A DNA stretch of 27,601 nt from a virus (IMGVR_UViG_3300031688_001544:1-27601); one strand, 5' to 3'. Shown: positions 3 through 27,601, counted from the first letter of the stretch. The notes: generated from the sequence alone by a model not told the origin. Numbers and translations are program-made.

Positions 3-320
3 AATGCATTGTTCATGCATTATCCTAAGGATGGTTATATAGGTTGGCATGATAACAGAGATGCACCTGGATATACTATACTATTTAATTGGAGTAAAGG
101 CGGTGACGCCTTTTATAGATACAGAGATTGGAAGACAGGTAAAGTACATACTATAGAGGATAGACCGGGTTGGTCATGTAAGACAGGTTGGTATGGCCCA
201 GGTGATGAGTCAACATTCCATTGTGCTGCTACTAATGAACCAAGATGGAGCATAGCATTCTATGCACGTAATGAAACAATGAGAGATATTATAATTGACC
301 ACATAGAAAATAATGACTAA
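3..320 (+). CDS. 2OG-Fe(II) oxygenase-like protein, C-terminal part (5' truncated)
   Basis: The frame is open to the left window edge, so this is probably the 3' end of a gene that starts upstream; a TTG at 9 is the first in-window start codon. Numbering from that TTG, the tail carries YIGWHDN (H14, N16), then FHCAA (H71) and EPRWSIAF (R79). This spacing matches the metal-binding and 2OG-binding positions of a double-stranded beta-helix Fe(II)/2OG oxygenase, a group often found in marine T4-like phages. The usual acidic ligand of HxD would be N16 here, so the chemistry is uncertain; it could be a non-catalytic cupin-like fold. It overlaps the next gene by 8 nt. I cannot name a substrate. Confidence 0.55.
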   Translation, partial: NALFMHYPKDGYIGWHDNRDAPGYTILFNWSKGGDAFYRYRDWKTGKVHTIEDRPGWSCKTGWYGPGDESTFHCAATNEPRWSIAFYARNETMRDIIIDHIENND

Positions 321-9656: not shown

Positions 9657-10314
9657 AAGCCCAGAACTTCTCTTTACACCACCAACATTTCTTACATGGC
9701 TTAGTAAAGTTTTTAGTAACATCAGCTTGGCCTTCACAAGACCTTGTTAATTTACTTAGTGCTCCAAGGTTTTCTGATTCAAAGCATTGAGCAATAAATG
9801 ATTTGTCATAATTTCTAAATGGTTGAGAGTTATCTGCTCTCCTTGCTCCATCTCTATATACAGGTCTATCATCCCACATCTTATTCTCTTTCATAATAGG
9901 CCTTGCTGGGTTTTTAGTAACAAATCCAAACATTGATTTTAATTTATGCTTCTTCTTGTTATCATCAAATACTGCAACCCAATGTTGCTCTTCAATCTTT
10001 AAACCTGTTTTAGGTGGAGTAGGTATAACAATGTGGGTAATACAAGTCTTAGCTAATTTTAATTCTTTCTCAACCCATGCTATAACCTTTTCGGCATGTG
10101 TGACATTCCAGTCTTTAGCTGCTTGCTTCTTCTTACCTGGGTTATCGTTCTCATCTCTTTGCCATGTAGCAACTACAATCTTAGGTTTAAGTTTATTCTC
10201 TTTAATATGTCTGGCTACAAGGTATAAGCCAAGAGCAGAGTCTAGTCCACCTGACACCCATAACAGTATGTTGCCAGTCTTTGGTAATTCGATATCTATG
10301 TTTTTGTAATTCAT
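9643..10314 (-). CDS. QueC-like PP-loop ATP pyrophosphatase (1)
   Basis: A 223-aa protein, the only clear minus-strand gene. ILLWVSGGLDSALGLYL carries the PP-loop SGGxDS (21-26) of N-type ATP pyrophosphatases. Near the C-terminus, SCEG (C193) followed by PCKKCWWC (C207, C210, C213) matches the zinc site of QueC-type proteins (C...CxxCxxC). Such enzymes adenylate a carboxylate or carbonyl oxygen and release pyrophosphate. True QueC makes preQ0, but no other deazaguanine genes are recognisable here, so I infer a different substrate. A paralogue lies at 16233. It has its own minus-strand late promoter (10352-10345), giving a 25-nt leader without Shine-Dalgarno. It converges on the radical SAM gene at 8199. 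Confidence 0.8.
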   Translation of the reverse strand: MNYKNIDIELPKTGNILLWVSGGLDSALGLYLVARHIKENKLKPKIVVATWQRDENDNPGKKKQAAKDWNVTHAEKVIAWVEKELKLAKTCITHIVIPTPPKTGLKIEEQHWVAVFDDNKKKHKLKSMFGFVTKNPARPIMKENKMWDDRPVYRDGARRADNSQPFRNYDKSFIAQCFESENLGALSKLTRSCEGQADVTKNFTKPCKKCWWCKEKFWAFNQY

Positions 10315-10321
10315 ATAAATA
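10314..10321 (+). promoter_or_regulatory. T4-type late promoter, plus strand, of a divergent pair
   Basis: An exact TATAAATA whose first base is also the first base of the opposite gene's start codon. Expected initiation near 10327 gives a 25-nt leader before the ATG at 10352. Confidence 0.7.
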
Positions 10322-10344
10322 AAAGTATTGATTAACTTATAATA

Positions 10345-10352
10345 TATTTATA
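10345..10352 (-). promoter_or_regulatory. T4-type late promoter, minus strand, of a divergent pair
   Basis: The plus strand reads TATTTATA, i.e. TATAAATA on the minus strand. Expected initiation near 10339 gives a 25-nt leader before the minus-strand ATG at 10314. Its last base lies in the ATG of the plus-strand gene, so each promoter sits inside the other gene's leader. Confidence 0.65.
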
Positions 10353-11704
10353 TGGAAACTAAAGCTAAAGATACTTTCTGTCCACTTCCTTGGAACTCAA
10401 TAAACCTAAGAAATAACGGTGACATGCGCATCTGTTGTAATACAAACTCGTATTCGCCACAACGTGGTATAATGAAGAACGAAGAAGGTGAAACATATAA
10501 TGCTGGTAAGCATGATTTTAATGAGGCACGTAATGCACAGATATTAAAAGATGTTCGTAAAGATATGCTTAAAGGTGAATGGAATCCAGAGTGTGAACGT
10601 TGCAGGCAAGAAGAAGTAAACGGTATTCCATCTCGTCGTCAATATGAGAATAACGATTGGGATATAAAATTAGATACAGCTATTCCAATCACTCAGGAAG
10701 ATGGAACTCTTGATGTAGATAAACAACTAATAGAATTCATTGATATACGTTATGGTAATTTCTGTAATCTTAAATGTAGAATGTGTGGACCAACTGATTC
10801 ACATATGTGGTACCCAGACTTTATTAAACTTACAGATGGTAAGGTAACAGGTTATAATGATACACATACTCGTATAGAACTACATCAAAATGAAAGAGGT
10901 AAATGGATTACTGATCAGTACGATTGGTTTAAAGATGCGCCAATCTATTGGAATAACTTTGAGAAGTACGCACATGATGCAAAGAAACTTTATATCGTTG
11001 GTGGTGAACCTTTAATTATTGCTGAACATGAAAAGAGTTTACAACTATTAGTTGATGGTGGTAAAGCACATAACATAGAGATAGAGTATAACTCTAACCT
11101 AACAAATGTAACACCTAAGTACTTAAAGCTATGGGCAGAGTTTAAACAGATTCGTGTAGGTGCATCCGTAGATGGATTCGGTAAGGTATTTGATTACCAA
11201 CGTACACCAGCTAAATGGAAATCTGTATATGGTCAAATGAAAAAGCTTAATGACAATAGAGATATTAATCTAAAGTGTTGGTTTACATTTACTGTTACAC
11301 CTTATAATGTATATCATATGCCTGAGTTTATGAAATGGAAATTAGAAGAGAGTGAGTTAGATAGATATAATCCTATCGATGGTATGAGACCAACTATAAC
11401 TCAGCATATGTGTCACTCACCTAAGTACTATAACATTAAAGTATTACCTCAACATCTTAAAGATGATATTGAAGATCACTATGAATTATATAAATCATGG
11501 GTTGATGGTACTGATTATTCGGATAATGTCAAGCGACACTTTCATGAGGTCTGTGATTCCACAATAAGATTTATGCAGTCTGAGTCTTATGAAAAAGATC
11601 ACCTACAAGGATTCATTGATATAACAAACAAGCTTGATAAGATTCGAGGACAAGATGTAAGAGAAATTGTTCCTGAGTATATCGAGATGTTTGATGCACA
11701 CTAA
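10352..11704 (+). CDS. Radical SAM protein with N-terminal twitch/SPASM-like domain (2)
   Basis: A 450-aa enzyme with the same permuted layout as the gene at 8199: CPLPW (C10), RICC (C28, C29) and CERCRQEE (C81, C84), then the SAM-cluster motif C138-x3-C142-x2-C145 in NFCNLKCRMCGP, and GGEP downstream. SVDGFGKVFDYQR is a conserved barrel segment also seen in other members here (SIDGTGDVFEHQR at 11694, SMDGTGKLFEYFR at 13827). The product is an oxidoreductase, transferase or modifying enzyme with unknown substrate. It heads a run of overlapping plus-strand genes; its last 11 nt overlap the next start. The promoter is the divergent late promoter at 10314. Confidence 0.85.
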   Translation: METKAKDTFCPLPWNSINLRNNGDMRICCNTNSYSPQRGIMKNEEGETYNAGKHDFNEARNAQILKDVRKDMLKGEWNPECERCRQEEVNGIPSRRQYENNDWDIKLDTAIPITQEDGTLDVDKQLIEFIDIRYGNFCNLKCRMCGPTDSHMWYPDFIKLTDGKVTGYNDTHTRIELHQNERGKWITDQYDWFKDAPIYWNNFEKYAHDAKKLYIVGGEPLIIAEHEKSLQLLVDGGKAHNIEIEYNSNLTNVTPKYLKLWAEFKQIRVGASVDGFGKVFDYQRTPAKWKSVYGQMKKLNDNRDINLKCWFTFTVTPYNVYHMPEFMKWKLEESELDRYNPIDGMRPTITQHMCHSPKYYNIKVLPQHLKDDIEDHYELYKSWVDGTDYSDNVKRHFHEVCDSTIRFMQSESYEKDHLQGFIDITNKLDKIRGQDVREIVPEYIEMFDAH

Positions 11705-12632
11705 GCCTTATTGTAAGGCACCGTGGGTAGCATTACAATATACAGCACTAGAAGGGTGTAAGCCATGTTGTGAATGGAAAGGTGATTTTTATAAAGGTAA
11801 TGTAAAAGATTATTATGCATCAGATTATTTAAAAGAGTTTAAGTCTTACATGCATGCAGATACAATGCATGATAATTGTAAGGAATGTGTGGACATTGAA
11901 GATAGGGGTGGTGATTCACGTAGATTAAAGTACATGCAATATCATATACCTCATGGCCTACAAAAATTAGACTATAGGCCTGGTAACAAATGTAATCTAA
12001 AATGTATAATGTGTGGCCCAGAGAATTCATCTATGTGGGAAGACGCTGAGAATATAACATTAGATAAATTAGATACATCAGATATACATGACCTGGACTT
12101 TAGTAAGTTACACAAGGTTATGATACTCGGTGGTGAACCATCAATCGATTTGAAAGTACGTGAATTCCTAAAGACCATACAAGACTTAGATTGTTATATA
12201 GGAATAACTGTTAATGCAACCAACGCATCAGACAAATGGTTTAATACATTAAAAAGTTTAAAGACAAACAAATTAGAGATAGCTTTATCAATTGATGGCA
12301 CGGGTGATGTGTTCGAACATCAACGTGAAGGTGCTAATTGGCTTATGGTAAAAGAGAATATAATAAAATACAAAGAGAATTTTAGAAATGTTATTATACA
12401 AGTAACAGCAACTAACTATAACTATCCATTAATACACGAATGGTGGGATGAGTTGCTTTCGTTTGATATAGACATATGGCAAAGCGTATGTTATATGCCA
12501 GACAAGTATGCACTTAAAACCATAGAAGATAAGGTAAGTATAATTAATTGGTTAATGGAGTGGCGTAAAACAGCCCCTGAAAACAAATATAAATATGTTG
12601 ATGAGGCAATTAATATGTTGAGAGTGGCGTGA
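11694..12632 (+). CDS. Radical SAM protein with N-terminal twitch/SPASM-like domain (3), short form
   Basis: A 312-aa protein from the ATG at 11694 (a TTG 27 nt upstream is possible but overlaps the previous gene further). N-terminal cysteines: CKAPW (C7), CKPCC (C22, C25, C26), CKEC (C62, C65); core C100-x3-C104-x2-C107 in NKCNLKCIMCGP; then LGGEPS and SIDGTGDVFEHQR. At about 310 residues it is the most compact of the set, lacking the C-terminal extension of the proteins at 8199 and 10352. A TATAAATA box lies in its last codons (12588). The next gene starts at GTG overlapping its stop (GTGA). Confidence 0.82.
   Translation: MHTKPYCKAPWVALQYTALEGCKPCCEWKGDFYKGNVKDYYASDYLKEFKSYMHADTMHDNCKECVDIEDRGGDSRRLKYMQYHIPHGLQKLDYRPGNKCNLKCIMCGPENSSMWEDAENITLDKLDTSDIHDLDFSKLHKVMILGGEPSIDLKVREFLKTIQDLDCYIGITVNATNASDKWFNTLKSLKTNKLEIALSIDGTGDVFEHQREGANWLMVKENIIKYKENFRNVIIQVTATNYNYPLIHEWWDELLSFDIDIWQSVCYMPDKYALKTIEDKVSIINWLMEWRKTAPENKYKYVDEAINMLRVA
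12588..12595 (+). promoter_or_regulatory. Possible intragenic T4-type late promoter
   Basis: An exact TATAAATA within the 3' end of the radical SAM gene at 11694, 33 nt before the GTG start at 12629. Expected initiation near 12601 would give a 28-nt leader, similar to the divergent pair. In such AT-rich DNA a chance match in coding sequence is possible. Confidence 0.45.
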
Positions 12633-13837
12633 AAGATAACGGTGTAGTATGTATGTTACCTTGGGTACACACAACAGTGAGTATGAAAAATACTTTGAGG
12701 CCGTGCTGTAGATTTAAAGTAGGTAAGGAAGACGAAGTTAAATCTGAAGATGATATCGAAGATATTAAAGATAAATTCAGATGGCTACGTAAAGAAATGC
12801 TTGCAGGTAATGAAGTAGATCAGTGTTCACTATGTTATCAACAAGGTGACAAGTCTATGAAGTGGACAGCCAACAAAGAATTTGATTTAGAAAATGCTGA
12901 GTTAACAGAAGACTTTGATGTATTAAGATCAGTAGAGTTATCCCTAGATAACCTATGCAACCTACAATGTAAGATGTGTGATTCTTTATTCTCAAGTAAA
13001 CTATATGATAGAGACAAGTATCTAATAGAGGTACACAACCTTCGTGGCAGAAATCCACAGAAGATACCTAAACAAAGAATTGAATTTCTTAAAGGTCTTG
13101 ATATAGATTGGCATGCATTAGAACATATTAAAATTCTTGGCGGTGAACCATTCTTCTCACCTAACTTTCCTAAGCTAATCGATTTCTTATTAGAACATTC
13201 TGAAGTAAAGAATGTAACATTAGAGATTGTAACGAATAGCACAAAGAGATTAGATCAAGATATGATTGATAAGTTAAATCAATTTGGTTGGATAATACTT
13301 ACATGTTCTCTCGATGGTTGTAATGAATTTAATACATATCAACGTTGGGGTTCACCTGGATGGCAAGAGACATTAGACACATATCTTTGGTATCATTCAG
13401 TTCTAAATAATATGGTTAAAAAACATATACATTCTACGTATACTATTCTTAATCTATCTGGCCTTGCCGATGATATGAAATACTGGGAGAATAATTATCC
13501 TGAGTGGAGTGTGTCATTTAACTTTGTTAATATGGGTGAGTATTCACCATATAATGCTCCGACATGGTACACAAATTGGATCTTAGAACAGTGGGGAGAT
13601 AAACACAACGAGAGAATATCTTTAGCTCGTAAGATGTTTAGTGAGAACCAAGTTGAATATAAACCATGGAAGACATGGGGATTAGCTATGTTAAAGCTTC
13701 ATGCTATTGATGGATACTATGATTCAGAATTAGGTGACTATTGTCCTGAGCTAGAAACATTATTATTAAAACATGATAAGACATATCAGCATAATCAGTA
13801 CTATGAAACACTAGAGGATTTTAATTATGAAATGTAG
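12629..13837 (+). CDS. Radical SAM protein with N-terminal twitch/SPASM-like domain (4)
   Basis: A 402-aa protein starting at GTG (GTGA overlap). N-terminal cysteines: CMLPW (C8), RPCC (C26, C27), CSLCYQQG (C66, C69); core motif C110-x3-C114-x2-C117 in NLCNLQCKMC; LGGEPFF follows and SLDGCNEFNTYQR marks the later barrel. The C-terminal 100 residues are rich in Trp and Tyr with one isolated Cys pair candidate (GDYCPELE), too little for an extra cluster call. Family chemistry is radical SAM; the substrate is unknown. The next gene overlaps by 11 nt. Confidence 0.83.
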   Translation: MKDNGVVCMLPWVHTTVSMKNTLRPCCRFKVGKEDEVKSEDDIEDIKDKFRWLRKEMLAGNEVDQCSLCYQQGDKSMKWTANKEFDLENAELTEDFDVLRSVELSLDNLCNLQCKMCDSLFSSKLYDRDKYLIEVHNLRGRNPQKIPKQRIEFLKGLDIDWHALEHIKILGGEPFFSPNFPKLIDFLLEHSEVKNVTLEIVTNSTKRLDQDMIDKLNQFGWIILTCSLDGCNEFNTYQRWGSPGWQETLDTYLWYHSVLNNMVKKHIHSTYTILNLSGLADDMKYWENNYPEWSVSFNFVNMGEYSPYNAPTWYTNWILEQWGDKHNERISLARKMFSENQVEYKPWKTWGLAMLKLHAIDGYYDSELGDYCPELETLLLKHDKTYQHNQYYETLEDFNYEM

Positions 13838-15023
13838 ATATGCATCATCGCATTTAGATTTCAAGAAGGGTGGATATGCCCCATGCTTTAGGTTTAAAAA
13901 TACTAGTGATGTTCAAAGACATAATTATTGGATGGGATCTGGTTCTGATAAATTACCAAGTCAAGTGATAAACAATAAAGACTTTCAAGATGTCAGAGAA
14001 CAACTACGTAATGACATATGGCCTGCGGGTTGTATAGACTGTAAGACACAAGAAGAAGCTGGCATGTCATCATACAGGACCAGATCATTGGATAATGCTA
14101 TGGACTATTCACCAGTAGATTATGATAGTAACATAGTTGTAATAAAAGATTTACAATTAAAGATGTCACGTGCTTGTAATTATACTTGTCGTCATTGTGA
14201 CTCAGCATCTAACTCCTCATTTGAAAAGCTAGGTCGTCAATTCCCTGAGATAGAGAATGAATTAAAAACTAAATATCAATTTAGTCATATATCTCCAGCA
14301 GGTGATAAGAAGATTATTATACCAACAGACGAAGTAATGGAAGATCTTTATGAAAATGTTTTTCCTACAATAGAACAACTTGAATTTTCTGGTGGTGAAC
14401 CTTTTTATCAAATTGAAATGTACAAAGTATTACAACGATTAATAGATCACCCAAATATTGATACAACTAAAATGAGATTAGTTTATAATTCTAATATGAG
14501 TCAGTTAACTCATAAGGGATATTCAGTAAAAGAATTATTTCCACACTTTGGGCAAGTACATATCACAGTTTCGATGGATGGTACTGGTAAATTGTTTGAA
14601 TACTTTAGAGAGGGTGGCAATTGGGATAACGTTATAAATAACATTAAAGAGATTGCACCGCTTGTAACACAATTTTTATTTGTGTGTACCACATCTTCAT
14701 ATCAAGCTTTTTACATGAATGAAATATATAAAGATTTAACAGAATTAAAAGAATCAATACCTGAGACACGTGTACAGATACGTGCAACATTTGTTCATTG
14801 GCCTAAAGCAATGGATATAGTAAACCTTGAAGAAGAAACTAAAACTAAAATAATGGAAACATTAGAGATAAATGATTTTACTAAAGAGTTTGCTATACGA
14901 ATGACAAGCTCTGACAATGAAATAGAGCCATGCTTCAAAGGTCTAGTAAAGACCCAAGATCTATTATACGATAGATCATGTGAAGAAGGTGCACCTAAAA
15001 TATATGAGTATATATGCAATTAA
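13827..15023 (+). CDS. Radical SAM protein with divergent N-terminal twitch domain (5)
   Basis: A 398-aa protein with a Shine-Dalgarno AGAGGA 8 nt before its ATG. The core motif is C117-x3-C121-x2-C124 (ACNYTCRHC), followed by SGGEPFY and SMDGTGKLFEYFR. The N-terminal domain is altered: it opens MKCRYASSHLDFKKGG with C3, has a single C20 (APCFRF) where the relatives have CC, and lacks the PW pair; C69 and C72 (CIDC) are kept. The twitch cluster would therefore have four rather than five nearby cysteines. It may bind a cluster with a different open site, or only three or four ligands. It overlaps both neighbours by about 10 nt. Confidence 0.8.
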   Translation: MKCRYASSHLDFKKGGYAPCFRFKNTSDVQRHNYWMGSGSDKLPSQVINNKDFQDVREQLRNDIWPAGCIDCKTQEEAGMSSYRTRSLDNAMDYSPVDYDSNIVVIKDLQLKMSRACNYTCRHCDSASNSSFEKLGRQFPEIENELKTKYQFSHISPAGDKKIIIPTDEVMEDLYENVFPTIEQLEFSGGEPFYQIEMYKVLQRLIDHPNIDTTKMRLVYNSNMSQLTHKGYSVKELFPHFGQVHITVSMDGTGKLFEYFREGGNWDNVINNIKEIAPLVTQFLFVCTTSSYQAFYMNEIYKDLTELKESIPETRVQIRATFVHWPKAMDIVNLEEETKTKIMETLEINDFTKEFAIRMTSSDNEIEPCFKGLVKTQDLLYDRSCEEGAPKIYEYICN

Positions 15024-16231
15024 CTATTGAAGTAACCTCTAATTGTCAGGCTCAATGCCCTGGTTGTATTCGTAAAAACGTAATGAATCCAACAACCGGT
15101 GAGGTTGGTTATACTAAAGGTGTTCCTAAGAATGTGAACATGTCTGTTGAAGCACACAATAGATTAATAGATGAGGCAGGAGAAGCTTTAACTTGGGTAA
15201 GTTATGATGGAGGCTTTGGTGATTCACCACTACACCCGCAGTTCTTAGAGCTAATAGAACACACAGTATCTAAACCTCAAATAGAAATTATTGCTATATC
15301 AACTAATGGTTCATATCAAACCGAGAAGTTTTGGTTTAAGCTTGGGCAGATTCTTTCTAAAAGTAAGGCAGTCAATAAGGATTTTATTCACGATGGTGAT
15401 ACTTTCTTAGATGCTGACGGTAATCCAGATAAGAATAATAGAATACAATATGGTCATTTAGTATTTTGGGATTTAGATGGTGTTGATAATGAATCACAGA
15501 ATAAGTATAGAGTTAAAACAAATTTCGATAGGATCATTCGTAATGCTAAAGCCTTTATAGCTGGTGGTGGTTATGCTGTATGGAAGATGATTCCATTTGA
15601 CTTCAATGAAGAATTAGAAGAGCGTGGGATGGAGTTAGCAAATGAACATGGCTTTGCAGAATTTAGAAGAACACGAACACATAGATTAGAACAATCAGCA
15701 ACACTACTTGCTTTAGCAGAAGCTCAAGGTATAGATCCTAAAGAATTAAATGATGGTGAAATAAATAGAGCATCTGATAAATTAATTAAGAAAAATGCAG
15801 ATGCTGGTAAAACATTAATACAAGATATAGTAATAGATCCTAAAAAATCTCCAATGCAAAATATGGATATAGCAAAAGAGAAGGCAGGTATTACGTGCCA
15901 ATGGGCAAACGTAGAAGGTGGTGGTAATTACCAAGTCAGTCATGATGGATCTGTATGGAGATGCTGTTGGCATAACTCAGCCTATCAATTTAGAACTAAG
16001 TTAAACACCGGTGATAGAGATGGATGGGAAAGATTTGTGCGGTTCTATGATGATAATTGGAACGACATAAATACTCACAGCTTCCAAGAAATTATAAGCC
16101 ATGATTTTTTTACCACAGATTTATATGAAAGCTTTGACAACGATTACGATGATCCTATTAATCCAAAGTTAAAGGTATGTACAAAGAGATGTTCTAATTT
16201 AAATTTAACAGAGAGTGAGAGGTTTTGCTAG
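15014..16231 (+). CDS. Radical SAM protein with C-terminal SPASM/twitch-like domain (6)
   Basis: A 405-aa enzyme in the usual domain order. The core begins at once: EVTSNCQAQCPGC gives C11-x3-C15-x2-C18. C-terminal auxiliary-cluster cysteines are C295 (ITCQWANV), C317 and C318 (WRCCW), C389 and C393 (KVCTKRC), plus a terminal C405. The CxxxxD-G-xxxxCCW pattern also occurs in the gene at 17120, so those two form a subgroup. Residues about 125-160 hold a charged insertion rich in Asp/Asn (DGDTFLDADGNPDKNN). The substrate is unknown. It is followed by a QueC-like gene 1 nt after its stop if that gene starts at ATG 16233. Confidence 0.8.
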   Translation: MQLTIEVTSNCQAQCPGCIRKNVMNPTTGEVGYTKGVPKNVNMSVEAHNRLIDEAGEALTWVSYDGGFGDSPLHPQFLELIEHTVSKPQIEIIAISTNGSYQTEKFWFKLGQILSKSKAVNKDFIHDGDTFLDADGNPDKNNRIQYGHLVFWDLDGVDNESQNKYRVKTNFDRIIRNAKAFIAGGGYAVWKMIPFDFNEELEERGMELANEHGFAEFRRTRTHRLEQSATLLALAEAQGIDPKELNDGEINRASDKLIKKNADAGKTLIQDIVIDPKKSPMQNMDIAKEKAGITCQWANVEGGGNYQVSHDGSVWRCCWHNSAYQFRTKLNTGDRDGWERFVRFYDDNWNDINTHSFQEIISHDFFTTDLYESFDNDYDDPINPKLKVCTKRCSNLNLTESERFC

Positions 16232-16232
16232 T

Positions 16233-17120
16233 ATGATAATAAATGATAAAAGTATTATATATGATAAAGATGTATTGAAAGATGAATGGAATATAGAATT
16301 AAACTTAAGTTATGATCATGCGTTAGTCGGTATGTCAGGAGGAATGGATTCATCTATTCTATTTTGGATGTTAGCTCATCATATTAATGAGAACAATTTA
16401 AATATTACATTACATGCCTATACATGCATCCATGAAGAGAGACCATGGCAACATATTCATGCAAAGAAAGTAATTGCATATGTAAAATCTGAATTTCCTA
16501 ATGTTAAATTTGGGGTACATGCAATTAATACCACACCAGCAAAGGACTATGTAGCATCTGGAACTACGTTACAATGGAAGACTAGTCGCGAGATAGCTAA
16601 AGAAGGTGGATCAGTAGGTACATACAGTGGTGTGACACTTAACCCACCAGATAGTATAGGTAAACCTATATGGAAAGACGCATGGCCTCGTCGCGCTATG
16701 AATAGGAATGCAGAAACTATTGCTGATTGGGATGTTGATGGAGAATTTATTGAGCATAACAATCCAAGTTTTCATGAGAGAGCTGGTATAGAATGGATAG
16801 CATCTGATTTTAATATGGACTCAGCAGATTCTGATGCTCATCATCAAAGTGCGAGAGACAATAATCACTATCATATTCAACATTATCCATTTTGTATATT
16901 AGATAAGCGTGTAGTACTTGCCTTCTATAAAAAGTATGGCCAGCTGGTATCGTTAGGTGAATTAACTAATTCGTGCGAAGGTCATATTACTATGAGAGGT
17001 GAACCTAAATTTTCAAAGCCTTGTCATTGGTGTTGGTGGTGTATAGAAAAAGAATGGGCAACCTCATATGTATTTAATTATGATGCCAATGTATCAATGA
17101 AAGACTGGCCAGATAGATAA
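16233..17120 (+). CDS. QueC-like PP-loop ATP pyrophosphatase (2)
   Basis: A 295-aa protein from ATG 16233, preceded by GAGAGG about 10 nt upstream (an in-frame GTG at 16215 would add 6 residues). VGMSGGMDSSILFWML contains SGGxDSS (35-41), the PP-loop. The C-terminal zinc-type cysteines are C248 (NSCEG), C264, C267 and C270 (PCHWCWWC), followed by EKEWA, matching the minus-strand paralogue (SCEG..PCKKCWWCKEKFWA). It has a His-rich stretch (SDAHHQSARDNNHYHIQH) absent from the paralogue. It is predicted to activate a carboxylate-like group with ATP. It is sandwiched between two radical SAM genes, overlapping the next by one base (TAATG), so a joint pathway is likely but inferred. Confidence 0.8.
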   Translation: MIINDKSIIYDKDVLKDEWNIELNLSYDHALVGMSGGMDSSILFWMLAHHINENNLNITLHAYTCIHEERPWQHIHAKKVIAYVKSEFPNVKFGVHAINTTPAKDYVASGTTLQWKTSREIAKEGGSVGTYSGVTLNPPDSIGKPIWKDAWPRRAMNRNAETIADWDVDGEFIEHNNPSFHERAGIEWIASDFNMDSADSDAHHQSARDNNHYHIQHYPFCILDKRVVLAFYKKYGQLVSLGELTNSCEGHITMRGEPKFSKPCHWCWWCIEKEWATSYVFNYDANVSMKDWPDR

Positions 17121-18169
17121 TGTATAGTTACTCTGACATAAAGCAAGTACATCTTGAACCGACACAGAAATGTCAAGCTAGATGCCCTATGTGTGATAGG
17201 AATGAAAACGGTGGTAAAGATAATAAGTATCTAACTAACGCTGACCTATCATTACTTGATGTACAGACAATGATGCCAGAAGCATTCGTAAACCAGCTTG
17301 AGAACCTCTATATGTGTGGTAACCATGGTGATCCGATGATGGCACCTGAAGCATTAGAGATAGCTCAATGGTTAAAGAAAGTTAACCCTAAAATAAGACT
17401 TGCCATGAATACAAATGGTGGTGCACGTACACCTGACTGGTGGGCGAAGATGGCGAAGGTCATGGATCATGTAACTTTCTCTGTTGATGGTCTTGATGAC
17501 ACTAATCATTTATATAGACAAGGTGTAAGTTGGGATAAGGTAGAAGAGAACATGGCTGCATTTTGTGATGCAGGTGGAATTGCTAAATGGGAATTCCTAG
17601 TATTCAAACATAATGAACATCAAATAGAAGAGGCCAGACTCTGGTCAGATACACTTGGTGTAACGACTTTTAGTGTGAAGAAGTCAGGCAGATATATATC
17701 TGCTGCAACATTAACTAAAAAAGATTCACACCAATCGAAGGATAGACATGAACAAAACACACAACTCTTGGAGCCACCTACTATGGCGCGCTTTAAAAAC
17801 GCAGCAAGCAAGGACTTTGATAACATTTCTGCTAAATTTGGGAACATGGATACTTATTTGGATGTGGCTGACATAGACTGTAAAGCTATTACAAAGAAAG
17901 AGATCTATATCTCAGCTGAAGGATTTGTATTCCCTTGTTGTTGGACAGCAGGTCAAATGTATAAGTGGTGGCAAAAACCTGGTGAGGCACAGATATGGGA
18001 ACATATAGATCAGTTTGATATTAATGCTATAAATACACCAATAGAAAAGATAGTCAATACATTCTTTAACTCAATAGAGGAAGCATGGGAAGTTGGCCCT
18101 AACCGATTAAAGGTTTGTGCCCTTAAATGTAATAAGAAGTTTGACCCGTTCGCAGCTCAGTGGCAATAG
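17120..18169 (+). CDS. Radical SAM protein with C-terminal SPASM/twitch-like domain (7)
   Basis: A 349-aa enzyme. The start ATG shares one base with the upstream stop. The core motif C18-x3-C22-x2-C25 lies in PTQKCQARCPMCDR; the usual GGEP is replaced by MCGNHGDPMM, an acceptable variant of the SAM-binding strand. SVDGLDDTNHLYRQG follows. Auxiliary cysteines: C254 (IDCKA), C273 and C274 (FPCCW), C333 and C337 (KVCALKC). It is similar in plan to the gene at 15014. Radical SAM enzymes of this layout commonly modify peptides or sugars; which one cannot be told here. The next gene starts at GTG overlapping its last 10 nt. Confidence 0.82.
   Translation: MYSYSDIKQVHLEPTQKCQARCPMCDRNENGGKDNKYLTNADLSLLDVQTMMPEAFVNQLENLYMCGNHGDPMMAPEALEIAQWLKKVNPKIRLAMNTNGGARTPDWWAKMAKVMDHVTFSVDGLDDTNHLYRQGVSWDKVEENMAAFCDAGGIAKWEFLVFKHNEHQIEEARLWSDTLGVTTFSVKKSGRYISAATLTKKDSHQSKDRHEQNTQLLEPPTMARFKNAASKDFDNISAKFGNMDTYLDVADIDCKAITKKEIYISAEGFVFPCCWTAGQMYKWWQKPGEAQIWEHIDQFDINAINTPIEKIVNTFFNSIEEAWEVGPNRLKVCALKCNKKFDPFAAQWQ
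18028..18035 (+). promoter_or_regulatory. Possible intragenic T4-type late promoter (weak case)
   Basis: An exact TATAAATA near the end of the radical SAM gene at 17120, about 125 nt before the next start. It encodes ordinary residues (AINTP) and may be a chance match. Confidence 0.25.
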
Positions 18170-18894
18170 GAAATACAATACTGTTAACCTGGCCTTGTGG
18201 CTCTGGTGGTGATATGGTCAGAACTTGTCTATATCCGTTACTGCATAAAGGTAATTGGGAATATAAACAATTAGATCGTGGGATGAATGGGTATATTGTT
18301 AAACACGGATTAACATGGAATGATAATTTAATATCTTTTGTTGATGAAGTTGGTCAAGCACAAACACCTATTATGTGGACAAGAGATGGTGATGATTATA
18401 TAGATGACACTGGCCAGTCAGATATATTTAAAATTATATTTAGTATCCATAAACGTCATCATTATGAAAACAATATTGAACAGTTAGCAGATCGTTGTAA
18501 GGAAGCATATGTGCTTGATGCGTTACATCCCGTTGTTACTTTTATTTGTGTGAAAGACAATAGGTTATATGAAGTATCTAAAAAGAATTGGTTACTAAAA
18601 ACATTTGATAATAGTTTAAATAAAGGTGTTGAGATAGATGTTGAAAGAAAGAATATGGATGACACCATTAAATGGAGAGAAGACAATCCAGATAGAGCTA
18701 ATCATAATTTTTATGAGTTAGGTGATAGAAAGCATATGATGTTTATGGATAACTTCTTCGATTGGGAATCATTTAAATGGGAACTAATAAGCTTCTGCGG
18801 TGTTTATGATAGAGAATGTCATATAGAAAACTTACCAGTAGTTAAACAATTTTGGCAGGCATGGAGAGATGAGCAAAGAATTAAAGTGGAGTGA
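18160..18894 (+). CDS. GxGGD-motif protein, paralogue 2 (unknown; possibly sulfotransferase-like)
   Basis: A 244-aa protein from a GTG overlapping the previous stop by 10 nt. TILLTWPCGSGGDMVRT (about 6-22) gives a hydrophobic strand followed by G14-S-G-G-D18. The C-terminus, DNFFDWESFKWELISF then PVVKQFWQAW, matches the 26612 protein (DSIYNWESYEAELKKY, HLVKEFWSKW), so these two are full-length paralogues. A strand plus GxGG loop at the N-terminus and a late helix with xWESxxxEL are reminiscent of sulfotransferase-like P-loop proteins, but the usual lysine is missing. Function is not assignable from sequence alone. The following radical SAM gene starts 26 nt before its stop. Confidence 0.6.
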   Translation: MAIGNTILLTWPCGSGGDMVRTCLYPLLHKGNWEYKQLDRGMNGYIVKHGLTWNDNLISFVDEVGQAQTPIMWTRDGDDYIDDTGQSDIFKIIFSIHKRHHYENNIEQLADRCKEAYVLDALHPVVTFICVKDNRLYEVSKKNWLLKTFDNSLNKGVEIDVERKNMDDTIKWREDNPDRANHNFYELGDRKHMMFMDNFFDWESFKWELISFCGVYDRECHIENLPVVKQFWQAWRDEQRIKVE

Positions 18895-19999
18895 GTATGA
18901 CTTCGGTCAAGTACCCTTTGATGACATACAGCACTTCGGTACGAGGTCTATGTTGGATAGGGATACGTTTACCGTGTCTTGGCTCCTAGGAAGATTCTGT
19001 AATTACAAGTGTTCTTACTGCTGGCCGTATGCTAGATCAGATAAGAAAGATCATAGACCACTTGCAGCAACCATAGGAACTATAGATGAAATCAAAAGAC
19101 AAGCTAGAGAAAGAGGATTTAATTCGTTTCACTTCTCACTTTCGGGAGGCGAACCGACATTTCATCCGAGCTACCTCGATATTGTACGCCACCTTAATAA
19201 CGATATGCCTAATTGTAACTTTCATAGTTTACACATGACATCAAATGTTTCTCGTAACATGAAATGGTTCGAGGAATATTATCAAGCATCTAAAGATATG
19301 AATAGAGTATCTATCACTGCATCCTATCATAGGGAACATGTTAACACACCTAAGAAGGTAAGTGAGTTCGCAGACAAATTAGAATTCTGTCAGTCACGTA
19401 ATATACAGATTACTATTAATATGGTTATGGTACCTGAGTTCTTTGAAGAGTTTTATGAAGAGGCATTATACTTTCATGAACGTGGTATCAATGTAACACT
19501 TAAACCACAGAGTGATCCTACAGCTTCATTTGTTGTTGATGGATATACTGATGATCAGTTATCAAGACTACACAATGGTATGCCACAAAGAGGATACACT
19601 ACAGCCAAATCTAAAGTTGAAAGACCTCATTATAAATGGAGAGATGCTGCAGTAGATAATCAGTATGGTAAAGTACCTGCTCACTTTGAAATAGAATTAA
19701 CTGATAGTAAGGGTAAGAAATATTATATTGATCAAGCAGAGAGACTGAATGCATTTAACTTTAATAACTTTAAAGGATGGGAATGCTCATCAGGTTATAG
19801 AAGTATTATTATAAGAGAGCCTGATGGTACAATCAAAAGAAGTTACTCATGTCATGATGAGCCATTAGGTCAAATAGAAACTGGGTTTAAATTATATGAT
19901 GGACCCAAGATATGTACAACAAGTGCTTGCGTATCTTCAGCTGATAGTAAGATACCTAAACGTAAGCCAGGGAATGTGATACCATTATGGACGGTATAG
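18869..19999 (+). CDS. Radical SAM protein with C-terminal SPASM-like cysteines (8)
   Basis: A 376-aa protein. The core motif C44-x3-C48-x2-C51 lies in GRFCNYKCSYC, and SLSGGEPTFHP (GGEP 93-96) follows. The C-terminal region has C306 (WECSSGYRS), C328 (YSCHDEPLG), C349 and C354 (ICTTSACVSS), an auxiliary cluster region unlike that of the genes at 15014 and 17120. It forms a third architectural type in the locus. PDGTIKRSYSC is typical of the SPASM hairpin before the cluster. Substrate unknown. It overlaps the preceding gene by 26 nt and the next small gene by 13 nt if that starts at 19987. Confidence 0.82.
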   Translation: MSKELKWSEYDFGQVPFDDIQHFGTRSMLDRDTFTVSWLLGRFCNYKCSYCWPYARSDKKDHRPLAATIGTIDEIKRQARERGFNSFHFSLSGGEPTFHPSYLDIVRHLNNDMPNCNFHSLHMTSNVSRNMKWFEEYYQASKDMNRVSITASYHREHVNTPKKVSEFADKLEFCQSRNIQITINMVMVPEFFEEFYEEALYFHERGINVTLKPQSDPTASFVVDGYTDDQLSRLHNGMPQRGYTTAKSKVERPHYKWRDAAVDNQYGKVPAHFEIELTDSKGKKYYIDQAERLNAFNFNNFKGWECSSGYRSIIIREPDGTIKRSYSCHDEPLGQIETGFKLYDGPKICTTSACVSSADSKIPKRKPGNVIPLWTV

Positions 20000-22129: not shown

Positions 22130-22770
22130 AATTATTTTGGTGGGCAACAGCATTAGGCTTTATATGGTGTCAGGTAATAACTCATTACGCTGTCAGTGTA
22201 GGTCTACATAGATACTTTGCTCATGGACAATTTAGAACAAGTGTAGCACACGAATGGGGATTCATAATAGGAATTATGATTGCTTGTGTTCGTACACCTA
22301 TTGGTTGGGTAGCGTCTCATAGAATGCATCATGCCGATACCGAGGGACCATTAGATCCACACAATTATAAAGAGATAGGTTACTTAAAGGTTGCATTAAC
22401 TACGTGGTCTATACCGAAAATACCAATACGATTTGCAAAGGATCTATATGATAACCCAAGACTTGTATGGGCTCATAACAATTGGAAGATATTCTTATTT
22501 ACATACTGGGCAATATGTATGTTGATCTCTCCATACTTCTGGTGGGCTGCAGCATTTATGCCATTCATGTTTGCGAAGATAGGATTTGGTATGTTAAATA
22601 TATTTGGGCATTGGCCTACTGGCCCTAAAGATGGACCATGGATGAATTGGATATTAGGTGGTGATGGTTACCATGAACAACATCATATGCATCCGCGTAG
22701 ATTAATATTAGGTAAGTATGATCTAGGTGGTAAACTGGCGAATAGATTTTGGAAAATAAAAAAACAATAA
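22120..22770 (+). CDS. Fatty acid desaturase (acyl-CoA/acyl-lipid delta-9-like), membrane
   Basis: A 216-aa protein with the three histidine boxes of membrane di-iron desaturases: HRYFAH (H30, H35), HRMHHAD (H67, H70, H71) and HEQHH (H185, H188, H189). Hydrophobic segments lie at about 5-28, 47-63 and 123-158. The typical family length is about 250-380, so this is a compact form with short ends, but every box is intact. It would introduce a double bond into a fatty acyl chain using O2, iron and an electron donor; no donor is encoded here. In context it could alter host membrane lipids or an acyl group made by the cluster. The start overlaps the methyltransferase-like gene by 10 nt. Confidence 0.85.
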   Translation: MDLELFWWATALGFIWCQVITHYAVSVGLHRYFAHGQFRTSVAHEWGFIIGIMIACVRTPIGWVASHRMHHADTEGPLDPHNYKEIGYLKVALTTWSIPKIPIRFAKDLYDNPRLVWAHNNWKIFLFTYWAICMLISPYFWWAAAFMPFMFAKIGFGMLNIFGHWPTGPKDGPWMNWILGGDGYHEQHHMHPRRLILGKYDLGGKLANRFWKIKKQ

Positions 22771-23576
22771 GAAATAACCCTTGGGTAGATGTTCCTATGA
22801 CTGCAGATGTATGGCATTTGTTGAAGGAACAACGCGTAGCTGATACATATTACAAACGTGGTAATGGTGATGCAGCTCAAGATCTAGAATGGGTTGAGGC
22901 AACACATAGATCGTGGGTCCATGAAATTATTGATCTAGCTGAATTCCCTTATTGTTATTTTGTTAATGGTACTACTGATGCAATACATCATTGGCTATTA
23001 AGTGAAGATAGAGATTGGCAACATTACACAGGTGAGTATGAATACCCTAACACAATTAAGCAAGGCCATGAGATAACAGGTGAAGAGCATAACGACAAAG
23101 TTCTATATGTATCTAATCCATCTGCTACTGATGGCAACTTTAAAATACTAGATGTTGATTGTCCAGTCATATTAGATTGTACATATATATCATCCACTGA
23201 TATACAACATATAGATGTGCCTAAAAATACTGAACAAGTTATGTTTTCTTTCTCTAAAGGATTCGGTTTAGTTGGCAATAGATTAGGTTTAGTATATACA
23301 AAGAAACCTCATAAGACATTACACTTATTAAAAGAATTTGAGAACTGGAATTATGGTGGTGTTAAAACAATAGATTTAATCATGAGCAATTACACTGTTG
23401 ATGATATGTATAACGAACATAGAGATAAGCAAGAGAAGGTTTGTGAGATGATGAACCTTATACCTACTGATTGTTTCTTCTTGGCTAACTCGTATGATGA
23501 TTATTATATGCGTAGAAGACGGATGAAAGAAAACAGTGTGGCTCGACTTTGCTTAACCCCGCTAATAGAATGGTAG
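22749..23576 (+). CDS. Short PLP-dependent aminotransferase-like protein (fold type I)
   Basis: A 275-aa protein from TTG 22749; ATG 22797 is a plausible later start. FVNGTTDAIHHWLL (71-84) matches the G-[ST]-T phosphate-binding turn; YVSNPSATDGNF (120-131) resembles the NPxNPTG segment; VILDCTY (140-146) supplies the Asp for the PLP ring (D143); and MFSFSKGFGLVGNRLG (165-180) gives the Schiff-base lysine K170 and a following R178. These occur in the right order with usual spacing. Normal aminotransferases are 350-420 residues, so the C-terminal small domain is mostly absent. Substrate unknown; it could make an amino sugar or aminate a cluster intermediate. Overlaps with both neighbours suggest coupled translation. 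Confidence 0.75.
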   Translation: MENKKTIRNNPWVDVPMTADVWHLLKEQRVADTYYKRGNGDAAQDLEWVEATHRSWVHEIIDLAEFPYCYFVNGTTDAIHHWLLSEDRDWQHYTGEYEYPNTIKQGHEITGEEHNDKVLYVSNPSATDGNFKILDVDCPVILDCTYISSTDIQHIDVPKNTEQVMFSFSKGFGLVGNRLGLVYTKKPHKTLHLLKEFENWNYGGVKTIDLIMSNYTVDDMYNEHRDKQEKVCEMMNLIPTDCFFLANSYDDYYMRRRRMKENSVARLCLTPLIEW

Positions 23577-24499
23577 TACCTGAATATAGTGGTGTACCAC
23601 TAAGTGAAATAAATCCAGATAACGTAGCAAAGCAAATTGCCAATCAAGGTTTAGTTGTTATACGTGATAGCGGAGCAACACCTGAGGAATATGCTGAATG
23701 GTCTCTTGGCGTAGGTTATCATTTAAGTCCAGAGATATGGTGTACTGATAAAGAACATTCACATTTGTTTTGGACAGTAACAAATGAGATGATGGATGAA
23801 AGGAACCAAGGATTATTTGGTGACTATGAATTAGATTGGCACACTAACATGACACCTGTTGCTGATGCAGAAGAAGTAATAGGCTTATACGCTAAGACAA
23901 TAACCTATGACACTGAGACATGGTTTGCTAATTCAGTACCATACTTTGCTCAACTACCTAAAGAGAAACAAGAATTATATCGTAAGCTTACTGTAGTACT
24001 CGATCCTAAAAGAACATTAGGTGTTATTAAGAAGGCATGGCAACCAGCGTTTAAAAAGATATATGGTCAAGAAGTATTAGACGAGATCAATAAGAATAGA
24101 AACACACGTGAGATAGTTAACTGTCAAAACATGGAGCCTGAGAATAAAGAAAAGTTTGGTGCAAGTAGAGGTATAATGAATAACCATAAACTTGTGCCTG
24201 ATCATCCATTGGGTGTTGAAGGTTTATTCTTTAGTCCATATGAAGTGCATGGATTTCTATTAGATGGTAAACCATATGAGCACCCAGAAGATATATTCTA
24301 TGATATGTGGGTTAACTATGTATGTAATAATGACTACATATATAAACACACATGGCAAGAAGGTGACATATGTTTATTCGATAACATAATAGGTATACAT
24401 AGAAGACCAGATATACTTAAAGATAAGCCACGTAAACTATTAAGAACAGCTAAGTGGTATAAGTCACATTTAAGAAAACACCATAACTATGTTGTATAA
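23570..24499 (+). CDS. TauD/TfdA-like Fe(II)/2OG oxygenase with HxN motif (1)
   Basis: A 309-aa protein from ATG 23570 (7-nt overlap with the aminotransferase-like gene; an in-frame TTG at 23549 is less likely). GDYELDWHTNMTPV aligns with the TauD ligand strand WHTDVTF, giving H91 but N93 where the iron-binding Asp is expected. The distal ligand is H277 in FDNIIGIHRRPD, and R292 (KLLRTAKW) fits the 2OG-carboxylate arginine. Everything except the acidic ligand fits the TauD family, so it may be an altered oxygenase, a halogenase-like enzyme or inactive. The same change is present in the two other TauD-like proteins downstream. Its stop lies within a late promoter box. Confidence 0.78.
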   Translation: MVVPEYSGVPLSEINPDNVAKQIANQGLVVIRDSGATPEEYAEWSLGVGYHLSPEIWCTDKEHSHLFWTVTNEMMDERNQGLFGDYELDWHTNMTPVADAEEVIGLYAKTITYDTETWFANSVPYFAQLPKEKQELYRKLTVVLDPKRTLGVIKKAWQPAFKKIYGQEVLDEINKNRNTREIVNCQNMEPENKEKFGASRGIMNNHKLVPDHPLGVEGLFFSPYEVHGFLLDGKPYEHPEDIFYDMWVNYVCNNDYIYKHTWQEGDICLFDNIIGIHRRPDILKDKPRKLLRTAKWYKSHLRKHHNYVV

Positions 24500-24502
24500 A
24501 TA
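24495..24502 (+). promoter_or_regulatory. T4-type late promoter immediately before ATG
   Basis: An exact TATAAATA overlapping the upstream stop codon, 5 nt before ATG 24508, identical in spacing to the one at 8186. Transcription would start at about the A of ATG, and no Shine-Dalgarno is present. Confidence 0.65.
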
Positions 24503-24507
24503 GAAAT

Positions 24508-25134
24508 ATGAGAACTAAGTATAAATTACCGACTCACGGTGAATTGAAACATATTCATATAGATCTTGGTAAGCTTCAAGCTGCCACAGATGTTCTATCT
24601 GCTGAATATGTAGATGTCAAGACCGCTAACAAAATGTTATGTGATAACCATATGGCATTGAGCAAATCTGTATACGATAACTTTAAACAAATTAATTTGA
24701 CTGAGCTCAATGGTGAAGAGTTACCGTTTACAAGTGATATAAAAGAAAGACTAAGACGTAACGAAGAGAAACTATATAACAAACCAAATGATAAACTGAT
24801 AGGTAGTTACTTTGAAGAGATAACTAACCAGTTTAAATGTGATAAGATGAGAGTTCGTATTACTAAACTCGATGGCCATACCGATGTGCCTATGCATATT
24901 GACTATGATCCTACATACGCAACAAGAGTAGTCATACCTGTATACACTAATGAGAAAGTCAAGAATGTATTTAAGGTTAAAGGTGAAAAGGTTGAGACAT
25001 ATTTAGAAGCTGGCAAAGCGTATTTCTTTAATACAGGATTCGCTCATGGAGTATTCAATGAAAGCGATGAACCGCGTATAGCATTCATGTTTAGTTTAGA
25101 TGGACAAGATGACATAACAGAAATAGAATTATAA
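24508..25134 (+). CDS. Fe(II)/2OG oxygenase, aspartyl/asparaginyl hydroxylase-like
   Basis: A 208-aa protein. MHIDYDPTYATRVVIPVYTN gives H130-x-D132 with the strand pattern of the aspartyl/asparaginyl beta-hydroxylase-like group; H180 (GFAHGVFNES) is the second histidine and R190 (EPRIAFMF) the 2OG arginine. All metal ligands are intact, unlike the flanking TauD-like proteins. It would hydroxylate a side chain or small molecule using O2 and 2OG. The gene abuts a late promoter at 24495 and probably starts a transcript with the four following genes. An N-terminal 75-residue region is charged and helical. The substrate is not identifiable. Confidence 0.75.
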   Translation: MRTKYKLPTHGELKHIHIDLGKLQAATDVLSAEYVDVKTANKMLCDNHMALSKSVYDNFKQINLTELNGEELPFTSDIKERLRRNEEKLYNKPNDKLIGSYFEEITNQFKCDKMRVRITKLDGHTDVPMHIDYDPTYATRVVIPVYTNEKVKNVFKVKGEKVETYLEAGKAYFFNTGFAHGVFNESDEPRIAFMFSLDGQDDITEIEL

Positions 25135-25135
25135 T

Positions 25136-25783
25136 ATGAATTTAGACCTAACACATTATGTCTATAAGGCAAAATGGATTGACGATGAACTTTGTGATGA
25201 AGCAATAGACAGGCTTAACCTTCAGCAGACTTGGTTGCCATTCCCTAAAGATGTAGTCAATGCATATCCAGATGAACTCAGACCACAAGATGGTATTAAA
25301 GGATCTACGCTCAGTATAGATTGGGCACAGTTCATGGGTGATCCTAATATTCCTGAGCAAGATAGAAACTATGGTCTAACTCATATGGATGACAGGCCAA
25401 CCTTAGATAAAGTCAGAGCTAGTGTAAAGAATGGATTAGATTATTATATTCACGAATATATGAAGGACATAGAGTGGTATGATTACTATACAGACTTTAC
25501 TGATCCTAAATTTATGAAGTATAGTAAGACCCATGACATGATGGAGCATTGTGATCACGTAAGATATATATTTGATGGTAAAAGAAAAGGCATCCCTACA
25601 GTTTCTATTGTAGGCAGTTTAGATAATCAGCACGAAGGAGGCTATGTGAGATTTTGGAATAAAGAAGAATACTATGTAGGTAAAGGTGAAGTCATGTATT
25701 TCCCTAGCAACTTTTTATATCCCCATAGAATAACGGAGGTCACTAAAGGATTAAGATATTCTTTTGTGAGTTGGGTATGGTAA
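25136..25783 (+). CDS. Fe(II)/2OG oxygenase, prolyl 4-hydroxylase-like
   Basis: A 215-aa protein starting 1 nt after the previous stop. YSKTHDMMEHCDHVRYIF gives H138-x-D140; YPHRITEV gives H197; GLRYSFVSWVW gives R207. The strand LDNQHEGGYVRFWN is the typical 'GGEL' region of prolyl 4-hydroxylase-like (P4Hc) folds. All ligands are intact. It is a predicted dioxygenase acting on a residue or small molecule; prolyl specificity is not implied. The TauD-like gene downstream overlaps by 7 nt. Two adjacent, unrelated 2OG enzymes with intact ligands suggest successive hydroxylations. Confidence 0.78.
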   Translation: MNLDLTHYVYKAKWIDDELCDEAIDRLNLQQTWLPFPKDVVNAYPDELRPQDGIKGSTLSIDWAQFMGDPNIPEQDRNYGLTHMDDRPTLDKVRASVKNGLDYYIHEYMKDIEWYDYYTDFTDPKFMKYSKTHDMMEHCDHVRYIFDGKRKGIPTVSIVGSLDNQHEGGYVRFWNKEEYYVGKGEVMYFPSNFLYPHRITEVTKGLRYSFVSWVW

Positions 25784-26637
25784 ATATATTAGATTACACT
25801 GATGATGAAATCAGAGACTTAGCATTAAAGATTGTCAAAGATGGTAGCGTAGTACTACATGAACAAGATCTAACACAAGCACAACATATAGAAGCATGTA
25901 AACGATTTGGTAAAATGGATCGTAATGAATACTTTATGAATCCAGTAAATGCAAGAGAGATCAGTATAGTATCCGGCCAAAGGAATGAGGAAGGTAAACG
26001 TATTGGTATGTTCGGTGATACTGAATTAGAGTGGCATCAGAATGGATCGGCACGACATGAGTTTGAAGATATAATAGTATCGTTGTATTGTGTAGAGGAA
26101 TGTATTGATACAGTTCTTTCTATATGCAGCCAGTCTGATTGCTTTGCTGAATTACCTACTGAGATACAGGAAAAATATAGAGGAATCAATATTCATCTTG
26201 ACCATGTACATGATGCTATATATAAAATATCTGAGCATGATGTTCCTGGCGAAGATCTAGAACCATCGGCAGAAATTAGAACAGGTAAAGAATTTTACAA
26301 TGATGAATCATCTAACAATCACCACGAGACAGTTGATTATAGACCACTTATAGGTGTACATCCTGTTGACGGTAGAGAATACTTATACTTTGCTTTACCA
26401 TTTATGGTTGGTGCAAGTACAAATGGTGTCATGATGACTGACGAAGAGTTTAAAGATTTCTACGATGAGATGTGGGGATACCTATTTAAATCTAAATATA
26501 TGAAGCATCACGTATTCAGAAGAGGGGACTTACTTATTATGGATCAGCTACATACAATCCATAGGAGATCACCTATTCAATATCTTGAAAGACAATTGTG
26601 GAGAACTGCATTTGACTATACCGCCATTAATTTTTAG
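25777..26637 (+). CDS. TauD/TfdA-like Fe(II)/2OG oxygenase with HxN motif (2)
   Basis: A 286-aa protein from ATG 25777, which lies inside the previous gene's end; an upstream TTG at 25771 would add two residues. MFGDTELEWHQNGSARH has H87 and N89 in the HxD position; H262 (MDQLHTIHRRSP) is the distal ligand and R276 (QLWRTAFDY) the 2OG arginine. It is nearest in plan to the truncated protein at the window end (MFGDTELGWHSNGNSRH) and more distant from the 23570 protein. Reaction unknown. The next gene starts within its last 26 nt. Confidence 0.76.
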   Translation: MVNILDYTDDEIRDLALKIVKDGSVVLHEQDLTQAQHIEACKRFGKMDRNEYFMNPVNAREISIVSGQRNEEGKRIGMFGDTELEWHQNGSARHEFEDIIVSLYCVEECIDTVLSICSQSDCFAELPTEIQEKYRGINIHLDHVHDAIYKISEHDVPGEDLEPSAEIRTGKEFYNDESSNNHHETVDYRPLIGVHPVDGREYLYFALPFMVGASTNGVMMTDEEFKDFYDEMWGYLFKSKYMKHHVFRRGDLLIMDQLHTIHRRSPIQYLERQLWRTAFDYTAINF

Positions 26638-27244
26638 TTGGACACCCGGTATGGGTGGAGATATGGTTAAAACATCTCTATTAGCTCTAATGGTTTCTGG
26701 CAATTGGGAATTTAAACCATGTCATGCTGAATTTTATAAAGATAATCCATTAGCAAATTGTTTCCCAACTTCTTTTGGATTATATTGTAATAGTAGGCTT
26801 ATAAGCTTTATTGATTGGAGAGGGCAAGTACAAAAGGTGGAACCATTAGGTACTATAGAATCAAGCCACTATGCTGAAACACAACACGAGTTTGTAGATA
26901 GTCTTATTAAAGAACATGGTTCACTAATAACCTTTCTAAGTCCTAGAAATATTAAATATCTTAAGATAGCTCAAAAGAATTGGCTAATAAAAACAAGTGT
27001 TACTAGTGGTGATAGGGATTCAATTGCTTGGTGGGATAATGAATATGAAAAGGCAATATTAAAAAGGAATGACTCTTGGTGTAAATATACTAATATCTTC
27101 TTGATGGATTCAATATATAATTGGGAATCATATGAAGCTGAATTAAAAAAATATTTAGCACGTTATGAAATTTATCCAGAAACAAATATGCATTTGGTAA
27201 AAGAATTTTGGTCTAAATGGATGGAAGAGCAAAGTATAAAATGA
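26612..27244 (+). CDS. GxGGD-motif protein, paralogue 3 (unknown; possibly sulfotransferase-like)
   Basis: About 210 aa from TTG 26612, chosen because it aligns with the start of the 18160 protein; the frame is open to a TTG at 26585 (219 aa). PLIFSWTPGMGGDMVKTSLL (about 5-24) has the same strand and GxGGDMV loop as paralogue 2, and the endings match (IYNWESYEAEL, HLVKEFWSKWMEEQ). SLITFLSPRNIKYLKIAQKNWLIKT parallels VVTFICVKDNRLYEVSKKNWLLKT of paralogue 2. It is thus a conserved small family duplicated within the locus. Fold and function are only guessed. The next gene overlaps by 4 nt (ATGA). Confidence 0.6.
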   Translation: MTIPPLIFSWTPGMGGDMVKTSLLALMVSGNWEFKPCHAEFYKDNPLANCFPTSFGLYCNSRLISFIDWRGQVQKVEPLGTIESSHYAETQHEFVDSLIKEHGSLITFLSPRNIKYLKIAQKNWLIKTSVTSGDRDSIAWWDNEYEKAILKRNDSWCKYTNIFLMDSIYNWESYEAELKKYLARYEIYPETNMHLVKEFWSKWMEEQSIK

Positions 27245-27601
27245 CTATACAAATAACAAACTTACCTAAGCAAAGACTTCAATGGGCTATGATCAAGACA
27301 CAGATCGATGGTCATAGTATATGGCATGAGCAAGACTTTACTGCTGAAGGCTTAGCAACATTTATGAAGACAATAGGTGAGTGTGAGACTCCTGATCTAT
27401 TCATGAATCCTAAGAAGACACCTGAGATCTTTCTAGTCACTGGCAAGAAGGATAAGCATGGTAAGAAGCTTGGCATGTTTGGTGATACTGAACTTGGTTG
27501 GCACTCTAATGGTAACTCAAGACATAACGTTGATAAGATATTGATTGCTTTGTATTGCGTTGAAGAAGATGATAATACTTGTTTATCTATATGTAATACC
27601 A
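27241..27601 (+). CDS. TauD/TfdA-like Fe(II)/2OG oxygenase with HxN motif (3), 3' truncated by window
   Basis: ATG 27241 opens a frame that continues to the window edge (about 120 residues visible). MFGDTELGWHSNGNSRHN gives H88 and N90, followed by IALYCVEE and CLSICNT, closely parallel to the 25777 protein (VSLYCVEE, LSICSQS). It is therefore the N-terminal half of a third TauD-like protein with the same HxN change; the distal His and the Arg lie beyond the window. The 4-nt overlap with the previous stop (ATGA) is typical of this locus. Confidence 0.75.
   Translation, partial: MTIQITNLPKQRLQWAMIKTQIDGHSIWHEQDFTAEGLATFMKTIGECETPDLFMNPKKTPEIFLVTGKKDKHGKKLGMFGDTELGWHSNGNSRHNVDKILIALYCVEEDDNTCLSICNT

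Follow-up and report, generated by a model that had tools for sequence, protein, structure and literature searches.

Asparagine in the iron-ligand position of a TauD-like family found in marine phages and in some Bdellovibrio-related bacteria suggests an unusual but working iron centre

The H-x-D/E...H triad serves to recognise and annotate Fe/2OG enzymes. How, then, should a set of neighbouring genes be read whose products resemble TauD and carry H-x-N at this place? Such genes are found in a 27,601-base virus fragment from IMG/VR (IMGVR_UViG_3300031688_001544:1-27601), the whole of which is referred to here as the window. Its right end is a tightly packed gene row, which runs from a desaturase-like gene to the cut-off TauD-like gene P0003:

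22120..22770, + strand: membrane fatty-acid-desaturase-like cassette partner (PF00487, E 8e-8)
22749..23576, + strand: PLP/aminotransferase-like cassette partner (weak PF00155 match)
23570..24499, + strand: HxN TauD-like P0001 (ATG at 23570, open frame from 23549; WHTN at 23837-23848; PF02668, 83 bits)
24508..25134, + strand: AspH-like protein, cassette partner (PF05118, E 1e-7)
25136..25783, + strand: oxygenase of the 2OG-FeII_Oxy_3 / phrog_61 type (PF13640, E 2.4e-8; phrog_61, E 1.7e-20)
25777..26637, + strand: HxN TauD-like P0002 (WHQN at 26032-26043; PF02668, 78 bits)
26585-27244, between P0002 and P0003: protein of no known type, without a Pfam match
27241..27601, + strand: HxN TauD-like P0003, cut by the window end (WHSN at 27499-27510; PF02668, 14.8 bits alone)

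A first-pass annotation had proposed that WHTN, WHQN and WHSN of the three TauD-like proteins sit where TauD has WHTD, and that the distal His and Arg are intact in the two complete copies. Both claims agree with the alignments: in a profile alignment to solved TauD/TfdA-type enzymes H-x-N falls on H-x-D, and in a multiple alignment with E. coli TauD the Asn lies on the Asp ligand, with the distal His and both C-terminal Arg residues also aligned. The positions given at the time, 23570, 25777 and 27241, are correct as the ATG starts of the genes but are not those of the motifs, which begin at 23837, 26032 and 27499. P0001 and P0002 clearly exceed the curated PF02668 cut-off of 27 bits; the truncated P0003 stays below it when taken alone and matches its complete homologues L019, L020 and L021, in which the distal His is intact, with E values of about 2e-69. 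The AF2 models, which are metal-free, adopt the TauD-type double-stranded beta-helix fold both for P0001 (pLDDT 82; best match TauD 3pvj, Z 23.0) and for P0002 (pLDDT 84; matches to TauD, ScoE and SfaA, Z about 24, the best 24.5), with rmsd values of 2.6–3.1 over 251–257 residues. The matches listed in the PDB fold searches are TauD-type oxygenases, and no halogenase is among them; likewise, P0001–P0003 have no match to PF05118, the AspH family, at E values up to 1. The coding pattern of WHxD, TGG-CAY-NNN-GAY, is absent anywhere in the window. By direct reading, as opposed to structural alignment, the other two recognisable 2OG oxygenases of the window keep H-x-D, as HID (24508-25134) and HCD (25136-25783), and the Asp-to-Asn change is therefore specific.

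The canonical Asp or Glu is replaced by Asn in P0001, P0002 and P0003 and, after removal of duplicates, in 112/116 distinct viral homologues, the remaining 4/116 carrying Asp, while the residue between His and Asn is free (S, A, T, V, Q or C). Because the Asn is kept while its neighbour varies, it is conserved beyond chance, and random variation at the second ligand can be rejected. The pattern used in the largest viral scan held the residues MDQ, which makes it neutral for the Asn and favours an associated Gln; other viral family scans used peptides without the Asn and without the Gln, and a further scan started from an HxD member. One of the viruses with the motif is the Pelagibacter phage Mosig, which carries a GWHSN copy. 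His264, the distal His, is invariant in the clade, as are Arg266 and Arg274, and Arg278 is nearly so; His264, Arg274 and Arg278 align with the distal His and 2OG-binding Arg residues of TauD. Values of dN/dS are about 0.1–0.35 in three groups of the family, with L002 left out, in which one stop codon in the row was dropped by the aligner, so that codons slipped and artefact values resulted. The earlier proposal that the motif reflects selection and not decay is upheld by these values and by the near-invariant His and Arg residues, and decay of the HxN proteins is unlikely.

A second change is associated with the clade, N259 to Gln, by which the 'DN' before the distal His became 'DQ' in 45/47 representatives. 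Loss of W257 was considered as a co-diagnostic change and rejected, as Trp is missing from this position in most of 30 other Bdellovibrionota TauDs as well. The conserved acids of the clade are E85, D253 and D258, of which only E85 is a clade-wide acid near the motif. None qualifies as a substitute ligand by this test, since HxD TauDs likewise conserve D253 and D258, and several of them have an acid at position 85 as well. An Asp or Glu as the true second ligand, which the first-pass annotation had named as grounds for refutation, hence has no clade-specific candidate.

In a tree of 61 proteins, 47 HxN proteins, one HxA protein and two viral HxD proteins grouped against 11 ordinary HxD proteins with support of 97/95. 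The viral HxD pair is nested inside the HxN group (support 100/99) and is therefore read as an N-to-D reversion. The tree implies one D-to-N change, followed by one reversion and one N-to-A change. When long branches were removed and the motif residue was masked, the family again separated from ordinary HxD proteins, at an SH-aLRT of 99, or of 96 once 12 TauDs from the same phylum had been added. HxN thus defines a clade, one of the possibilities raised at the outset, but the clade is not limited to phages, as members also lie on Bdellovibrionota chromosomes; HxD relatives, which might have pointed to random variation, form one nested viral subclade and the outgroup.

Cellular sampling covered Bdellovibrionota and plasmids. 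PF02668 is present in 89/369 Bdellovibrionota genomes, and ordinary PF02668 proteins of this phylum keep Asp or Glu in 30/30 best matches. Members of the HxN clade occur there as well, two sets being located on contigs of 349 and 505 kb, the latter with genes read as tryptophanyl-tRNA synthetase and ribonucleotide reductase near the HxN set. The genes around the motif are shared too. Among 82 phage loci, AspH-like (71/82), PLP-like (71/82) and desaturase (62/82) genes accompany the HxN gene, mostly within 6 kb, and the conserved cassette consists of a desaturase, a PLP enzyme, an HxN TauD and an AspH-like protein, with a related form in Bdellovibrionota chromosomes. The Bdellovibrionota locus L154 has all four types, including a homologue of the AspH-like protein and a PLP homologue (PF00155, E 4e-4), and L155 has AspH-like, desaturase and radical SAM types. 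Small proteins repeatedly adjoin these bacterial HxN genes (L154:6238-6636, L154:13431-14018, L155:2178-2768, L155:11022-11477 and L156:253-708), some with a Tat-like leader; the two that were checked have no Pfam match. The L154 cluster also contains a fusion of GNAT-like and SET domains (9992-10996). A metagenome-assembled genome titled Candidatus Paceibacter contributes an 8.6 kb contig (L119) with a desaturase-PLP-TauD-AspH row 75% identical to the phage proteins; the contig is probably that of a phage and came into this genome through binning.

In Mosig, a comparable gene row adjoins tail-fibre genes. The window itself encodes two long, tail-fibre-like proteins rich in internal repeats (2827-8144), followed by a closely packed run of some eight proteins of the radical SAM type (8199-19999), six of which have PF04055 matches (8199, 10352, 12629, 15014, 17120 and 18869), while those at 11667 and 13827 look similar by reading. 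Two PP-loop ATPase-like genes lie within this run (9643-10314 on the minus strand and 16215-17120). The radical SAM protein at 18869-19999 matches PADLOC viperin models (E 3.9e-12), probably as a general radical SAM cross-hit, and the TauD-like genes of the window are without any match to defence-system models. A glycine-rich N-terminal motif (GGMGGE / GSGGDMV / GMGGDMV) is common to the proteins at 313-1779, 18160-18894 and 26585-27244, which are possibly one paralogous family.

From what was observed or computed, namely homology, fold prediction, invariance, clade structure, purifying selection and gene association, we infer metal binding, 2OG turnover and the type of reaction. On balance we favour, with modest confidence, the reading that the HxN proteins are active Fe(II)/2OG enzymes that bind iron via two His and either the Asn or a water/anion, and that carry out oxidative tailoring in the conserved cassette; retention of the His and Arg residues together with the invariant Asn argues for a working carboxylate-free Fe/2OG site. 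The facial-triad Asp would have changed to Asn once in the TauD/TfdA branch and then been kept. Iron may be held by the proximal and distal His together with the side-chain oxygen of the Asn or with a water/anion taking the place of the carboxylate, while the retained arginine(s) would bind 2OG. The predicted tailoring, most likely hydroxylation or desaturation, would take place alongside the desaturase-like, PLP-dependent and AspH-like enzymes of a cassette that adjoins tail-fibre-like genes in pelagimyophage-like phages. Precedents bear on this in both directions. AspH is a hydroxylase without a carboxylate ligand, with water at that site (PMC13168262), and hydroxylation hence stays the default reading. 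In FIH, part of the activity is kept when Asp is replaced by Gly, whereas it is not kept with Ala or Glu (PMC10947486), so that changing the carboxylate can abolish activity. A bolder version, which we put forward only tentatively, is that the clade represents a new natural Fe/2OG centre (two His plus Asn, or an Asn-lined open site) for chemistry beyond plain hydroxylation, for instance halogenation or the transfer of another anion, within a pathway common to marine phages and Bdellovibrionota.

Could the site instead be dead? Pseudoenzymes, whose fold persists for the binding of 2OG or a ligand or as a scaffold for partner enzymes, would account for the lost metal ligand, the usual pseudoenzyme sign, and for several paralogues lying side by side. 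We regard this as doubtful: both His and both 2OG-site Arg residues are kept, the Asn is invariant where the middle residue is free, although free loss would allow variation at this position, and a reversion to Asp in one subclade would be odd for a dead site.

A halogenase- or pseudohalogenase-like activity, in which the Asn is not bound to iron and lines an open site for chloride, bromide or another anion, leading to a C-X bond, is quite unlikely. The carboxylate is lost at the same position as in HxG/HxA halogenases, the marine habitat is rich in halide, and one Bdellovibrionota member of the clade (L156:1582-2430), otherwise an ordinary clade sequence, reads WHSA in place of WHSN, the classical halogenase motif. 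It stands in tandem with a TauD-like gene reading WHRD (710-1558). However, the window proteins have neither Gly nor Ala at the carboxylate position, and as Asn nearly fills the space of Asp, the analogy with a Gly/Ala halide site is not direct; moreover, AspH is without the carboxylate yet does not halogenate (PMC13168262). The suggestion of selected, altered chemistry made in the first-pass annotation holds insofar as the Asn is kept under selection, while the halogenase analogy does not follow directly. Halogenation by the window proteins is possible but unsupported, and it is more plausible for the HxA relative than for the HxN proteins.

The existence of Asp in one viral subclade, in the same active-site background, could mean that Asn and Asp are functionally near-equivalent, the proteins being ordinary oxygenases with unchanged chemistry and interchangeable ligands, and the Asn being fixed by descent. 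This is very unlikely, as neutral interchange should give many Asp forms, but Asp occurs in only 4/116 distinct viral proteins and by one event. Asn-Gly is the most deamidation-prone pair, and post-translational deamidation of the Asn to Asp, restoring an ordinary HxD triad, would fit the 38/47 representative sequences with Asn-Gly at the motif, but it is highly improbable, because the P0001 clade has N-M/L/V and still keeps the Asn, the Gly may be a mere family feature, and a single mutation would suffice to encode Asp, which was fixed just once.

A further occurrence of the motif lies at the start of the window:

3..320, + strand: partial gene of an unclassified 2OG-like family, not TauD (WHDN at 45-56)

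The WHDN had been noticed before and is present, but the gene is not TauD-like, having no match to PF02668 and only a sub-threshold one to PF03171. WHDN is kept in 9/9 IMG/VR homologues that cover the motif, a tenth being cut before it, and Phage C48C1, with three matches to the gene in its genome, encodes a family member with WHTN. A PDB sequence search with this family found nothing. This is a second HxN family, unrelated to the first, of putative 2OG oxygenases.

The carboxylate-free iron site that we favour can be set against several known systems. In the literature searched, no relevant paper on HxN facial triads was found. Sequence family and jelly-roll fold are shared with TauD/TfdA (PF02668; E. 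coli TauD, ScoE, SfaA, AAD-1), as are the proximal and distal His and two C-terminal 2OG-site Arg residues, whereas the Asp iron ligand is Asn in the HxN clade and identity is only about 14–25%. A large, long-lived clade that keeps all but the carboxylate would add a third naturally occurring solution for this ligand, besides Asp/Glu and Gly/Ala, and as Asn, Asp and Ala versions all occur naturally within the family, swaps between them can test what the ligand does. The 2OG-dependent halogenases (HxG/HxA: SyrB2, WelO5, DAH type) resemble the clade in a second ligand position without carboxylate, and in the HxA motif of one cellular member, but the window proteins have Asn and the HxN clade descends from TauD-type proteins. 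AspH, with its two-His iron site, may be alike in principle as a 2OG oxygenase without a protein carboxylate ligand (PMC13168262); it belongs, however, to the separate family PF05118, and the PF05118 cassette partner in the window keeps an H-x-D reading. The HxN family would provide a handle on the product of the conserved oxidative cassette of pelagimyophage-like phages. A search of the main text of the study describing the pelagimyophage host recognition cluster gave no mention of TauD or dioxygenases, and none of an HxN motif was noticed (PMC7029224). Radical SAM cassettes are known from that cluster, which resembles the present locus in its variability and in combining tail fibres and glycosyltransferases with radical SAM genes (PMC7029224).
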